64,000 bases of DNA. It comes from Xylocopilactobacillus apicola. GTDB lineage: Bacteria > Bacillota > Bacilli > Lactobacillales > Lactobacillaceae. Numbering within the stretch: the first letter of the stretch is position 1; each line of letters begins with the position of its first letter. The notes below the pieces were generated by a model that was given only the letters and a program-made list of their open reading frames with translations, had not been told where the DNA came from and searched no databases. The position numbers were made by a program, and so were the translations under genes. The DNA lies in the NCBI RefSeq assembly GCF_033095985.1, contig NZ_AP026802.1, forward strand, positions 1,240,001 to 1,304,000, in the 5' to 3' direction. Shown in pieces: positions 5,279-9,638 of the stretch.

Positions 5279-5316
5279 AAAAAAAAATAACCTGCTCCAG
5301 CTAATGGCAGATTATT
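5279..5316 (-). terminator. Rho-independent terminator of the bacteriocin/LytTR operon
   Basis: On the minus strand AATAATCTGC and GCAGGTTATT pair as a 10-bp stem (one G-T) around an 11-base loop, followed by eight T. The stem overlaps the stop codon of the LytTR gene and isolates the module from uvrC. Confidence 0.88.
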
Positions 5317-6004
5317 AACGGTTACTTAAAATAAGTAAATTATCTTCTAATTCTTTGAGTTTACTGCGTGCACAATGGATCTTAACTTTGTTTGATAAGA
5401 CATAACCACCTGAACCCACCTTAACTTCTTTCAAATTAACAACGAGATAACGATTGCAGCGAAAGAAATAATCAGGTAAACGTTTCTCATAACTAGCCAG
5501 ACTTCCGCGCACTTTGAAAGTTTCAAACTTGGTCACTGCTCTGAGTTCATGATCATGGACTTCCAGACAAATCAAATCATCACAACAAACAGATTTACCA
5601 TCAATTAAGATCTGAGGTTTAATCAGAAAATCTTTCAAAATCGACTTCAAGCGAAATTTTATTTCATGCAATTCTTTAACTTTATCGATTATATTAGTGA
5701 ATTGAAGTTTGTGTGAAATGGCTCGAATCACTGATTCAAGCTGGGAAGCAAGCAAAATTAAACGACCATTCAAATCTTTAGCTTGAATTTCTCGTGCAAG
5801 TTTAATTCCTGTATGATTTTGAACCGGTAATCCAACCTCCACAAAATAAATATTAGTCTCGTTCGGATTAATATTGTCCAATATTTTTCGAGGCGAATGC
5901 GTCGCTTGAACAATTGTAATAGAGCTACGAAGATCGTCGATCGCTTCTTTAAGCATACTTATCAGTCCAGCGCTTCTAGCAAAAATAAAAACGTTTATGT
6001 CCAT
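5315..6004 (-). CDS. Orphan LytTR response regulator with degenerate receiver domain
   Basis: A 229-residue AgrA/ComE-like regulator: receiver-like domain (about 1-115) then LytTR DNA-binding domain (about 130-225), with the signature F-F-R-C-N-R-Y-L-V-V-N. The receiver looks inactive as a phosphorelay. AgrA has E-D at the acidic pocket; here it is A9-R10. The phospho-acceptor Asp of Y-F-L-D is Glu56 (Y-F-V-E). No histidine kinase is present in the window. The ATG at 6004 has GGAA about 7 bases upstream; a TTG at 6016 would add four residues. It ends the bacteriocin operon and probably controls it, by inference from position and from the direct repeats at 9241-9272. Confidence 0.87.
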   Translation of the reverse strand: MDINVFIFARSAGLISMLKEAIDDLRSSITIVQATHSPRKILDNINPNETNIYFVEVGLPVQNHTGIKLAREIQAKDLNGRLILLASQLESVIRAISHKLQFTNIIDKVKELHEIKFRLKSILKDFLIKPQILIDGKSVCCDDLICLEVHDHELRAVTKFETFKVRGSLASYEKRLPDYFFRCNRYLVVNLKEVKVGSGGYVLSNKVKIHCARSKLKELEDNLLILSNR

Positions 6005-6045
6005 TATGAATTCCAATCCTGTTTAAATGAAGGATAACTTAAAAA

Positions 6046-6678
6046 CTACAGGGTTGCAAGATCAATGATCTCATCTGCTTGCTGCCAAATGGCACTATTG
6101 TGCGTGGCAACAATAATCGTTCGATGATCGTTCTTTAATGACAACAACAGCTTCATTACTTCGTCCCCATTAGTCGGGTCAAGTGCTGCCGTTGGTTCAT
6201 CAGCCATGATCAAAGGCGGATCTTTTAAGATGACCTTAGCTAACGCAACCCGCTGCGCCTCACCCCCGGAAATTTCATAAATTTTCTGGTCGAGATCGAG
6301 ATAGTCCAGATTAACTTGCGCTAAAGCTGCCAGCTTCTTCTTTTTCTTCTCGCTAGGTTCAAGCTTCTTGCCGACGAGACCTAAATCCAGATTGTCCGAA
6401 ATCGTTTGGGAATCAAGCAAGCCGAAATTTTGAAACAAATATCCCAAATCATTACGGAAAAATTTCTGAGGTTTGATCTTAAAGATACTCTTCCCTTCAT
6501 AAAGAACATCACCTTCGTCAGGTTTATCAAGGTGGCCGAGAATATTTAGTAACGTCGTCTTCCCGCTCCCACTACGACCAATTAAAGCGTAAGCCTTGCC
6601 CGCATCGAATTCTAGATTTACATGGTCAAACAACGTTCTTTCGGAGAACTTCTTAGTAAGATTTTCTGTTTTCAGCAT
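6046..6678 (-). CDS. ABC transporter ATPase, lactococcin-972-type export/immunity
   Basis: A 210-residue MacB/LolD-like ATPase. Walker A G-R-S-G-S-G-K-T-T, Q-loop L-F-Q-N-F-G, signature I-S-G-G-E-A-Q-R, Walker B L-I-M-A-D-E-P and H-loop A-T-H-N are all intact. It follows the DUF1430 membrane protein gene with a 2-base gap and would power that protein. In lactococcin 972 loci this pair is associated with export or self-protection; which of the two applies here is not visible in the sequence. Confidence 0.92.
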   Translation of the reverse strand: MLKTENLTKKFSERTLFDHVNLEFDAGKAYALIGRSGSGKTTLLNILGHLDKPDEGDVLYEGKSIFKIKPQKFFRNDLGYLFQNFGLLDSQTISDNLDLGLVGKKLEPSEKKKKKLAALAQVNLDYLDLDQKIYEISGGEAQRVALAKVILKDPPLIMADEPTAALDPTNGDEVMKLLLSLKNDHRTIIVATHNSAIWQQADEIIDLATL

Positions 6679-6680
6679 TA

Positions 6681-8696
6681 TTATTGTCCTTTCATTACAG
6701 TCGCGGCAATTTCATCTTCATGCTTGAACTGACGATAAGTTAGAACTGCGCCAATTCCAAGGAACAGAACTGTTGTCCCGGTAATTATTGCCAAGTCTTT
6801 TGTCAGCCAGAATCCGGCAATCGAGGCAACCATAAGAGTCGCCAGTTGAGCAAGCAGATAATTGAAGTGAATCTCAGTAAAACTAAGCCCCGCAATTCGC
6901 TTAATAAAAATTTCCCGCCGGAATTCTTCAAAGTATAGAAGATTCATTAACGTAAACATGAAAATTGAAGTTACGATACTTAAAGCTGAACCAATTAGTA
7001 AAGAAATTAAACGAGTTTTTAGCTCATTACTGGTCCGCTGATATCTAGCTAATCCGCTCTCCACTAATCCCATGTACTTATATAATTTGTACTTTTTAAG
7101 TAATTTAATAGTTGAATCGTAGTCCTTAAAGGCAATTCTGCTACTAAGGGTCGCTGCCCAGTACATATTAGATCCTGGGGTACTACGTGTAGACGTTGGA
7201 GTCCAAACAACAATAATGGGATCTTTAATAAACTGTGTGGTCGTCATTGAATCTAAGCCAGAATTATAGTAAAAACGTTTCTGGTTATTAGCTAAATAGC
7301 CTTTTACAACTTCAAAAGAACTTCCTTGATACTTTGATTCATCAAATAAACTGTTCCAAGATTTAAGGAATGCCTGAGTTAATTCTTGTTCTTGTCCCTT
7401 CAACTTTTCTGGAAAAAGTAACCCGAACTCCCCTGGCTTTAGATGTTGAAGACGCTCTTTTAATTCTGAACTAATTTCAACATTTTGTTTAATTAAATAG
7501 TTGGGTGTCACATAAATCGCATTCCCGTCAGGACCATATTCAGCTGCGTCGACCTTGTCCCTTAGAAAAGAAGGAAGATTTTTGGTATTACGATTCTCAC
7601 ACAATAAGGCATCCTGCTGGTTAACCGCTTCGTTTAAGAAATCGTAACAAAGTTGATCCGTTTTATCAGCCTCTGTCTTTTTAACTCCGCCCGCAGCCCA
7701 AGAATAGGTCGTGAGATAGCGATCTTTTGCCGCCTGCCATTTATTTTGGGCTTGATTCATTTCCTCGTAGGATGCATAATCGGTACTAAATTGTTTTACC
7801 GTGAATCCCACGGTCACAATCGCTATAAATTGAGCTAACAACATAACCCCTAGGATCCGCTTCAACGGCAAGCGCCCGTTAATTAAGGACATTAATTTGC
7901 TGTTATGAAGACTAAATAAATAAATTATACTGAACGCTAGGGAAATGAAAAGTAGTAACGCCGCATAGAGAATGGCCCCAAACGCCAAAAGCAAGGCAAA
8001 ATTAAATTGGAGACTATGATTAAACCCAAGAACAAGCAGTCCGACTAGCCACATGCCACCATTAATTAAAGTAATCGTCTTGAAGTCAGCAATCACTGGG
8101 CGCAGGGTCACTGTTAATAGTGATTCTCCCGCAACCAAGCGAATTCCCGCAAAGCGAAGGTCTTTGATCCGGTAAATTAAGGACAATCCAGAAAAAGTTA
8201 ACAAAAAGATCAAAACGCAAAGGACGGCAGTTTCGTTTAACAGAACAATAAAACTTCGCAAAAAAGATATTTTTTCAAAAGAAACGGCATTATAGCCAAG
8301 TTCTCTAAATTTATTGACCAGAAGTTGTGAATCAAGATTTCCCCTTACAATTAAGTAGCCACTGGTAACATCACTGGCTTTAGCATCTGATTTATTTGCT
8401 TGCTTGAGTTCTTGGGGTATCTTCCCTTCACCGTAGGTCATATAAGTATATAAATCTGCTTCGGTTTTCGACCCGACAAGAACACCTTTAGCAATTAAAA
8501 TGTGATGAACGCTGGCAAATTCGTTAAGCTCTCGTTCGAATTTAGCTCGATCGACTTGTTCTTTTTTAGGATCAGGATTGATAATATCCACTGAAGGATA
8601 ACTGACAGAATTTAAGTGTTCCTTCTTTTGTTGCAAAGAAAACGCCAAGAAGAGGAGGACCACTGCAGAGGAAAAAACAAGAAATATTTTTTTCAT
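6681..8696 (-). CDS. DUF1430 bacteriocin-associated integral membrane protein
   Basis: A 671-residue permease. It has an N-terminal hydrophobic helix, an extracytoplasmic region, a cluster of about four helices between residues 150 and 305, a large extracellular region (about 310-560) and three C-terminal helices. This FtsX/MacB-like arrangement matches DUF1430 proteins next to lactococcin-972-family peptides. It is encoded directly downstream of the bacteriocin and upstream of its ATPase. The start ATG follows AAAGGATTATAA. Function as exporter or immunity factor is inferred from locus architecture. Confidence 0.88.
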   Translation of the reverse strand: MKKIFLVFSSAVVLLFLAFSLQQKKEHLNSVSYPSVDIINPDPKKEQVDRAKFERELNEFASVHHILIAKGVLVGSKTEADLYTYMTYGEGKIPQELKQANKSDAKASDVTSGYLIVRGNLDSQLLVNKFRELGYNAVSFEKISFLRSFIVLLNETAVLCVLIFLLTFSGLSLIYRIKDLRFAGIRLVAGESLLTVTLRPVIADFKTITLINGGMWLVGLLVLGFNHSLQFNFALLLAFGAILYAALLLFISLAFSIIYLFSLHNSKLMSLINGRLPLKRILGVMLLAQFIAIVTVGFTVKQFSTDYASYEEMNQAQNKWQAAKDRYLTTYSWAAGGVKKTEADKTDQLCYDFLNEAVNQQDALLCENRNTKNLPSFLRDKVDAAEYGPDGNAIYVTPNYLIKQNVEISSELKERLQHLKPGEFGLLFPEKLKGQEQELTQAFLKSWNSLFDESKYQGSSFEVVKGYLANNQKRFYYNSGLDSMTTTQFIKDPIIVVWTPTSTRSTPGSNMYWAATLSSRIAFKDYDSTIKLLKKYKLYKYMGLVESGLARYQRTSNELKTRLISLLIGSALSIVTSIFMFTLMNLLYFEEFRREIFIKRIAGLSFTEIHFNYLLAQLATLMVASIAGFWLTKDLAIITGTTVLFLGIGAVLTYRQFKHEDEIAATVMKGQ

Positions 8697-8718
8697 TTAT
8701 AATCCTTTTTATACAACA

Positions 8719-8754
8719 AAACACTAATTAGTGTTATCGAACTAATTAGTGTTT
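8719..8754 (-). terminator. Stem-loop between bacteriocin and exporter genes (partial terminator)
   Basis: A perfect 14-bp inverted repeat (minus strand AAACACTAATTAGT / ACTAATTAGTGTTT, 8-base loop) followed by TTGTTG. It fits an attenuating terminator or mRNA-stabilising hairpin that gives high bacteriocin but lower exporter expression. The left arm also contains self-complementary AATT, so an operator role is possible. Confidence 0.7.
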
Positions 8755-8775
8755 ATATATATTTATAATTAATTA

Positions 8776-9093
8776 TCAGTAGTAATCATACCAGAAAGCA
8801 GCTGGTTCTCCCCAAAGTGTCCAAATATTGGCGTAAGCCATCTGAGCTGGGCTAGCAAAACCTTTTTTATATTTCTCTTTAAACCATCTACTTCTCACAG
8901 TGGCACTGTGGTGTTGACTCTGATGGTAGTAAGCCGAGTAGGCCCCCTCTTTATCATTATGACCGTACCACCATACTGATGCATAAGTGGGGCGCTCTTC
9001 AACCTGATAAGCTGCCACAGTTGTAACTGGGCCAATAACTGCTCCTAAGGCAACTGCCGTTAGAAGCGCTTTTTTAACTTTATTTAAAGTCAT
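8776..9093 (-). CDS. Lactococcin-972-family bacteriocin precursor
   Basis: A 105-residue secreted peptide. An ATG further upstream (9105) and a longer frame to 9129 exist, but AAGGA sits at ideal distance before the ATG at 9093. The first about 28 residues form a Sec-type signal (K-V-K-K, hydrophobic core, V-A-A then Y). The mature part carries lactococcin 972 landmarks: S-A-Y-x-x-Y-H, H-S-A-T-V, and an aromatic W-Y-D-Y-Y terminus comparable to F-Y-Y-N-F-W. Lactococcin 972 binds lipid II and blocks septum formation. It is followed by DUF1430 and ATPase genes. This mature sequence is rich in Trp/Tyr/His and diverged from the type member, so target range is unknown. Confidence 0.88.
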   Translation of the reverse strand: MTLNKVKKALLTAVALGAVIGPVTTVAAYQVEERPTYASVWWYGHNDKEGAYSAYYHQSQHHSATVRSRWFKEKYKKGFASPAQMAYANIWTLWGEPAAFWYDYY

Positions 9094-9205
9094 TTTTTCC
9101 TTCATTGTTTTTGAGTTTATAAATATCATTCACAAACTCGTAAACACATTTATTTTTTGAATCAAGACATAAATAAAAATCTCTTATGCATCAATACATA
9201 AACAT

Positions 9206-9214
9206 ATTGTAGCA
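9206..9214 (-). promoter_or_regulatory. Extended -10 promoter of the bacteriocin operon
   Basis: Minus strand TGCTACAAT is an extended -10 (TG-n-TACAAT). The -35 position (AACAAA) is poor, as is usual for activator-dependent promoters. The 5' leader to the start codon is about 105 bases. Confidence 0.6.
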
Positions 9215-9240
9215 GGTTGAAAGCGTTTTTTGTTACCCGT

Positions 9241-9272
9241 GACGTGAACAGTCAGTTTTTGACGTGAATAGT
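9241..9272 (-). promoter_or_regulatory. Direct repeat, candidate LytTR operator
   Basis: GACGTGAACAGT (9241-9252) and GACGTGAATAGT (9261-9272) are direct repeats with 20-bp periodicity, 11 of 12 bases identical. They lie about 42-73 bases upstream of the predicted bacteriocin transcription start. AgrA/ComE/PlnC-type LytTR proteins bind paired direct repeats about two helical turns apart upstream of weak -35 regions, so this is the expected place. Binding by the LytTR protein encoded in the same operon is inferred. Confidence 0.6.
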
Positions 9273-9324
9273 AAAAAAGCTGACGAGAATCGAAATCAAT
9301 TTGATTCCAATTTCATCAGCTTTT
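9273..9324 (-). terminator. Terminator of trxA
   Basis: A long imperfect stem (arms AAAAAGCTGACGAGAATCG and the TTCATCAGCTTTT side, closing with ATCAA/TTGAT) ending in TTTTTT on the minus strand, directly after the trxA stop. It ends trxA before the bacteriocin promoter. Confidence 0.8.
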
Positions 9325-9326
9325 CA

Positions 9327-9638
9327 TCATTTCGTATATTTATCTAAAATCTCAGCTAATTGTTCTTTCGGATGGAAACCCACGATCCGTTCTTTGATTT
9401 CCCCGTCCTTCTTGATTAACAAGGTCGGAATTGCTTGAATCCCAAATTCCTTCGGAGTTTCAGGATTTTGATCAATGTCCATCTTCGTGAATTTAACATC
9501 ATCACGTTCCGATGCCAAATCATCAATCACTGGCGATTGCATCCGGCAAGGTCCACACCAAGTTGCCCAAAAGTCAGTTAATACTACCCCACTGTTCGTT
9601 TCATCATTAAAATTTGCATCTGTTATTTCAGTAACCAT
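9327..9638 (-). CDS. trxA: Thioredoxin
   Basis: A 103-residue classic thioredoxin that reduces protein disulfides in the cytoplasm. The active site is W27-C28-G29-P30-C31, with the cis-Pro motif A-I-P-T-L and the C-terminal G-F-H-P-K. A GGAGG ribosome-binding site precedes the ATG. It has its own promoter (9674-9702) and terminator, so it is monocistronic. In many Firmicutes trxA lies between mutS2 and uvrC; here both flanks are occupied by other genes. Confidence 0.97.
   Translation of the reverse strand: MVTEITDANFNDETNSGVVLTDFWATWCGPCRMQSPVIDDLASERDDVKFTKMDIDQNPETPKEFGIQAIPTLLIKKDGEIKERIVGFHPKEQLAEILDKYTK

Follow-up and report, generated by a model that had tools for sequence, protein, structure and literature searches.

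Gene content and insertion site

The window, that is, the whole 64,000-nucleotide stretch analysed, comes from a Xylocopilactobacillus apicola genome of 2,311,735 bases; the closest relative compared has 2,271,855 bases. Four genes follow one another on its minus strand with short gaps. The first (8776..9129) encodes a lactococcin-972-family bacteriocin (TIGR01653, 40.6 bits; cut-off 32.1), and its likely start, judged by eye, is the ATG at 9093, after GAAGGA. It is followed by a bacteriocin-associated integral membrane protein, the permease (6681..8696; TIGR01654, 306.3 bits; cut-off 189.35), by an ABC ATPase of the lactococcin-972 type (6046..6678; TIGR03608, 274.6 bits; cut-off 254.85), and lastly by a LytTR regulator (5315..6004). 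The three families of a lactococcin-972 operon are present in the right order, all over their NCBIfam cut-offs. A 14-bp inverted repeat between the bacteriocin and the permease (8719..8754, minus strand) is a possible attenuator or partial terminator, but it serves as a lead only, as terminator-like sites were no commoner than in shuffled sequences. On the 3' side of the regulator (5289-5313), a stem-loop (7-bp stem, 11-nt loop) leading into Ts was seen by eye and is absent from the list produced by the terminator scan. From the gene order, the genes from bacteriocin to regulator are likely to form one operon.

The genes lie between uvrC and trxA, within a stretch (5284..9325) that is absent from a sister genome (G009). 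There, uvrC, whose protein is 90% identical, and trxA adjoin each other. DNA matches to the sister genome stop at window position 5283 and restart at 9326, indicating either the acquisition of about 4.04 kb here or its loss from the sister. After trxA, a hairpin at 9276-9330 (-24.1 kcal/mol, z -5.9) is consistent with a terminator.

The receiver of the regulator and its predicted fold

The regulator frame (5315-6004, minus strand) has 229 residues counted from its ATG; an alternative in-frame start, TTG, lies 12 nt further up. Its LytTR DNA-binding domain scored 49.5 bits with PF04397 (cut-off 22.6), and its receiver reached 19.7 bits with PF00072, below the cut-off of 30.2. We aligned it with nine close paralogues, six from the same genome and three from genus mates. 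All five phosphorylation residues are present in each paralogue. In the regulator, their Asp-Asp pair is replaced by Ala9-Arg10, their acceptor Asp by Glu56 and their Thr by Ala86; only Lys108 is kept and the other four are lost. The protein thus departs from the canonical AgrA/ComE arrangement of acceptor Asp, acidic pocket, Thr and Lys. The preliminary description had read the gene as a LytTR regulator with Glu for the phospho-Asp and no acidic pocket, and the alignment, which could have placed a conserved Asp at the acceptor site, confirmed this reading and added the loss of Thr86 to it. As judged from its residues, the receiver is without those needed for normal Asp phosphotransfer.

The substitutions were also compared with 76 other aligned regulators, a set in which at least one locus is counted twice (L064 and L118 are the same). 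The acceptor position is Asp in 75 of the 76 and Asn in one, Lys108 is invariant, and position 86 holds Thr (72), Ser (two) or Ala (two). Half of the set (38/76) came from loci of a scan with two peptide patterns including YFLDIDL, which favours Asp; the other 38 were obtained through homology or domain searches, and of these 37 have Asp at the acceptor position and one has Asn. In the DNA-binding part, Ser214 aligns with the position of the DNA-contact Arg of AgrA, which we take to be R233. This position is Arg in 49 of the 76 homologues and Trp in the regulator of the L053 kinase-regulator pair described below. The linker between receiver and LytTR domain is 11 to 19 residues shorter than in the paralogues, as counted in the alignment for four of the nine.

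Partly worn pockets were also seen in three other LytTR regulators of the Lactobacillaceae: Ala-Gln in L182 (9421-10170), Glu-Ser with Ala for Thr in L183 (8663-9412), and Glu-Asn with Asn for Asp in L184 (8176-8925). The fetched stretches of L182 and L184 gave no AgrC-type kinase match, and L183 has two such matches about 3.4 kb or more away, adjoining another LytTR regulator.

The AlphaFold model of the regulator has a mean pLDDT of 91.5, and its best match among solved structures is full-length pneumococcal ComE (4cbv, E 1.2e-13), with a whole-chain TM-score of just 0.44-0.48 and an rmsd of 9 or more. The ComE D58E receiver (4mld) ranked seventh among the structural matches, at 0.78 by target length. 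The predicted fold agrees with the earlier statement that the AgrA/ComE receiver pattern is kept. With Glu56 in this fold and the PF00072 score under its cut-off, the protein has the features of a pseudo-receiver, and in the model the phosphorylation pocket is lost while the fold is kept.

The preliminary description had further suggested that Glu56, acting as a phosphomimic, could make the regulator a constitutive activator. No residue replaces the Asp of Asp-less receivers more often than Glu (26% in a 2015 survey; PMC4395418), and the reporter activity of Streptococcus mutans ComE D60E is given as nearly twice that of the wild type (PMC12323615). However, the survey describes the Asp-to-Glu change alone as often insufficient (PMC4395418), and a 2025 review proposes that the Glu of pseudo-receivers perhaps acts by binding the conserved Thr and Lys (PMC12632262). 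With Ala at position 86 and neither pocket acid present, some of the contacts proposed for Glu are missing, which weakens the case for Glu56 as a simple mimic. In addition, ComE D60A and D60N also activate, so that Glu is not needed there (PMC12323615), and ChxR with its Glu replaced still binds DNA in vitro (PMC4395418). Constitutive activation through Glu56 is therefore, in our judgement, very unlikely.

Kinases, relatives and history of the regulator

No window ORF of at least 90 aa matched, at E up to 1e-4, an AgrC-type kinase model built from seven of the genome's own kinases, and none of the 12 PF14501 matches in the genome falls inside the window. For AgrC-type kinases, both searches agree with the claim that the window holds no kinase gene; no such partner was found beside the regulator. 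The genome holds 11 LytTR proteins. Eight of the 12 PF14501 matches are at LytTR loci, seven directly adjoining a regulator gene and one about 1.3 kb off (L059); the PF14501 kinase of L051 has an open frame of just 273 aa. Two of the four remaining matches were inspected: one adjoins an OmpR-like regulator, as judged by eye, and one lies within a 613-aa protein. A genome search for a partner, as had been recommended, thus yielded eight AgrC-type kinases, one of them broken, at other LytTR loci and none beside the regulator. LytTR genes with no AgrC-type kinase are the window regulator and two receiver-less genes. The regulator gene is an orphan.

The two receiver-less genes (L003 1231-2204 and L005 1345-2222) each precede a small membrane protein and resemble LytTR Regulatory Systems. 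In the sister genome, four small frames of 89-97 aa with similar C-terminal parts adjoin a LytTR kinase pair (L061 10104-11344). The broken kinase, at L054 8740-9675 (about 526.7-527.7 kb of the genome), is present in short open frames beside an intact LytTR regulator, which may be a kinase-less regulator in the making.

In a 19-row tree, no end branch is longer than that of the regulator, at 3.26 changes per column (median 0.35). The protein is not nearest the L053 regulator, and its placement among the paralogues is poorly defined. Of the ungapped columns that do not vary among the nine paralogues, it matches 14 of 42 in the receiver, compared with 12 of 18 in the LytTR domain (one Fisher test, p 0.024). 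When 20000 random sequences were generated with its base composition, none was free of stops, a control which shows only that the open frame is not due to chance. That 229 codons have stayed open despite so much divergence speaks for selection on a protein product.

These data bear on the possibility that the regulator is a remnant, its kinase lost and its gene drifting, with the operon run by a paralogous pair alone. The very long branch and the loss of 28 of the 42 invariant receiver columns would fit, and the fragmented L054 kinase beside its intact regulator means that kinase decay occurs in this genome. However, the 229-codon frame is intact at saturating divergence, the LytTR part is better kept than the receiver, and the predicted fold is intact, so we regard a drifting remnant as unlikely. 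A simple story would be that the regulator was captured into the operon, then lost its kinase, and that its pocket then decayed; the L054 pair may represent the middle step, kinase loss.

An orthologue search of 397 genomes of the family found none: it gave at best 34% identity among matches covering most of the regulator, and shorter matches reached 40%. A pattern scan of contigs gave 33 loci, the two best with 28-29% identity over most of the regulator. The Asp-less regulator has so far been seen in one genome.

Lactococcin-972-type loci were surveyed by gene order. The search, which scored at most two candidates per genome, placed at least 84 rows from 63 of 395 genomes above the TIGR01654 cut-off and missed the L053 copy. 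Sixty stretches, covering 61 of the 84 rows, and eight loci from a family search (L095-L102) made up 68, with flanks of about 6 kb or more unless a contig ended. A receiver-bearing LytTR regulator was found in two of the 68, both in the same genus and both with Asp and an adjacent kinase; the model used could miss receiver-less LytTR genes. Among another 12 loci, L103-L114, where the permease match was weaker or fragmentary, one (L105) has adjoining LytTR systems, again with Asp kept. No kinase-free Asp-less LytTR regulator was found among the 68 stretches and the 12 weaker loci.

Next to the L053 pair, and divergent from it, lie a permease and an ATPase that are more similar to the window's own (53% and 83% identical, respectively) than those of any other locus compared. 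A lactococcin-972-type transporter with a kinase-regulator pair next to it on the other strand is also seen in L062 (G009; permease truncated), in L105 (G331) and in one genus of another family (L252 and L254). The link between kinase pair and transporter thus recurs with kinase and Asp, though rarely (2/68), and the kinase-less, Asp-less form in the window is the one exception seen.

A promoter repeat shared with an intact kinase pair

Upstream of the operon, two TTCACGT half-sites form a direct repeat on the minus strand (9242-9268), as in promoters of LytTR Regulatory Systems. Half-site 1 (9262..9268) lies 20 bp upstream of half-site 2 (9242..9248), and a -10-like TACAAT (9206..9211) follows 30 nt after half-site 2. 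An imperfect third half-site, TTCTCGT (9283..9289, minus strand), lies 21 bp further up and is perhaps fortuitous, since it falls inside the stem of the hairpin after trxA.

Exact TTCACGT pairs at spacings of 19-22 occur twice in the genome, in the window and at 1651986-1652013. The same search gave none in three genus mates, two of which are 85% complete, and none for a reversed control. The second repeat falls between the two genes of the intact L053 kinase-regulator pair, upstream of the regulator gene, with a spacing of 21 bp as against 20 bp in the window. As the motif was derived from the window, this second place is the sole independent match. When two mismatches were allowed, the genome showed no excess over the reversed control (16 vs 22 at 21 bp; 12 vs 18 at 20 bp); we therefore relied on exact sites. 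Eleven other regulator loci of the genus were scanned: five have a repeat with a different half-site, TTAACGT (three times), TTCGCGT or TTGACGT, and none was found in six.

Two looser TTCACGT-type repeats are also present at L053. A TANNNT hexamer lies 30-31 nt after half-site 2 in all four promoters, those of the window and three at L053, and 7 of 5000 shuffles did as well. These amount to less than four independent cases, because the L053 promoters at 2766 and 4066 resemble copies of each other. The looser repeats (L053 2393-4656) precede small genes beside the kinase pair that appear, by eye, to encode membrane-anchored or lipoprotein-like products.

The locus had been proposed to be under kinase-free control. 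The position of the repeat's only other exact match, before the regulator of an intact pair, opposes this, and on the evidence of the DNA the locus is probably not kinase-free.

Mode of control and comparison with known systems

We suggest that the regulator is an orphan pseudo-receiver, controlled by dose, that acts on a promoter induced by the L053 pair and sustains or limits bacteriocin expression; we put the chance that this account is right at about even. It would be a ComE/AgrA-family LytTR protein freed from control by Asp phosphorylation, with any activity proportional to its amount. Judging from the gene order, it would be made as the last gene of the bacteriocin operon. Its targets may be LytTR direct repeats, and the TTCACGT pair in front of its own operon is the simplest candidate. 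The bacteriocin promoter would probably be switched on by the paralogous kinase pair at about 1.651-1.653 Mb, because the sole other exact repeat precedes the regulator gene of that pair. Bound to these repeats in its unphosphorylated state, the orphan might then sustain or limit expression. What we infer here is the binding, the sign of regulation and the cross-control exerted by the L053 pair.

We lean slightly to sustaining, through autoactivation, since D60E, D60A and D60N variants of S. mutans ComE activate a bacteriocin promoter and the kinase is not needed (PMC12323615); an Asp-less relative could therefore activate as well. Input from a Ser/Thr kinase is another known route for ComE (PMC6010298). 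By carrying a regulator that is deaf to phosphorylation and shares kinase-driven sites, the operon could convert a brief signal into bacteriocin output that is latched or self-limited, with no kinase of its own, an idea that we hold tentatively.

The orphan could instead damp the operon, binding the same repeats without activating or forming weak heterodimers with the phosphorylated paralogue, which would give delayed negative feedback. It is the last gene of the operon that it would limit, it shares a half-site with L053, and an autoactivator with no off-switch would presumably lock the operon on. We know of no orphan Asp-less LytTR regulator that acts in this way, which counts against damping. 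PlnD opposes PlnC as repressor and activator on the same repeats from one operon (PMC2714321), and, in a section heading of the S. mutans report, heteromeric ComE activates more weakly than homomers (PMC12323615). However, PlnC and PlnD are 59% identical (PMC2714321), whereas the regulator is 28-33% identical to its kinase-linked paralogues. Damping is possible but rather doubtful. In the preferred account of a dose-controlled orphan, what stands of the mechanism first proposed is the orphan state, the loss of phosphotransfer residues and the plausibility of dose or dimerisation; the role of Glu as a phosphomimic is weakened by the change of Thr86 to Ala.

A limited literature search returned no report that combines an Asp-less LytTR receiver and kinase-independent activity with a lactococcin-972-type operon. 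The 2025 review states that the mechanisms by which bacterial pseudo-receivers are activated or inactivated remain a mystery (PMC12632262). The system described here brings its probable target promoter with it, and a kinase-driven paralogue sharing the half-site would serve as an internal control. It also includes a pair, its kinase broken, that may be an intermediate. With these three features in one genome, the loss of phospho-control and the role of Glu could be tested in one small system.

Asp-less receivers, kinase-independent activity of ComE and a ComE-driven lactococcin-972-type locus are already known. ChxR, HP1043 and RitR are not known to have LytTR outputs, which sets them apart from the regulator. 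They resemble it in that the Asp is replaced, the receiver fold is kept and the proteins are often orphans (PMC12632262, PMC4395418); neither source uses the word LytTR in its main text. ComE of S. pneumoniae and S. mutans is similar in joining a receiver to a LytTR domain, in acting on bacteriocin promoters and in being the best structural match, but it has the Asp and a partner kinase, ComD, and the regulator has neither. At the pneumococcal streptococcin B locus scbABC, the linked regulator is of the ComR type and ComE is encoded elsewhere with its kinase, a further difference from the window. This locus is otherwise alike, a lactococcin-972-like operon with a LytTR (ComE) site upstream (PMC11796350), and ComE of S. 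mutans is active without its kinase (PMC12323615). The membrane protein of the window operon is the ABC permease, whether or not it can also inhibit as the dedicated membrane protein of LytTR Regulatory Systems does. The regulators of HdrRM and BrsRM are not known to have a receiver. These systems likewise control bacteriocins without a two-component pair and through upstream direct repeats, but pair the regulator with a dedicated membrane inhibitor (PMC6193735). PlnC and PlnD of Lactiplantibacillus plantarum differ in that both are encoded in one regulatory operon and are highly similar to each other. Neither is known to be Asp-less, and the kinase PlnB is encoded in the same operon. They are alike as two LytTR-type regulators that act on the same bacteriocin repeats (PMC2714321).
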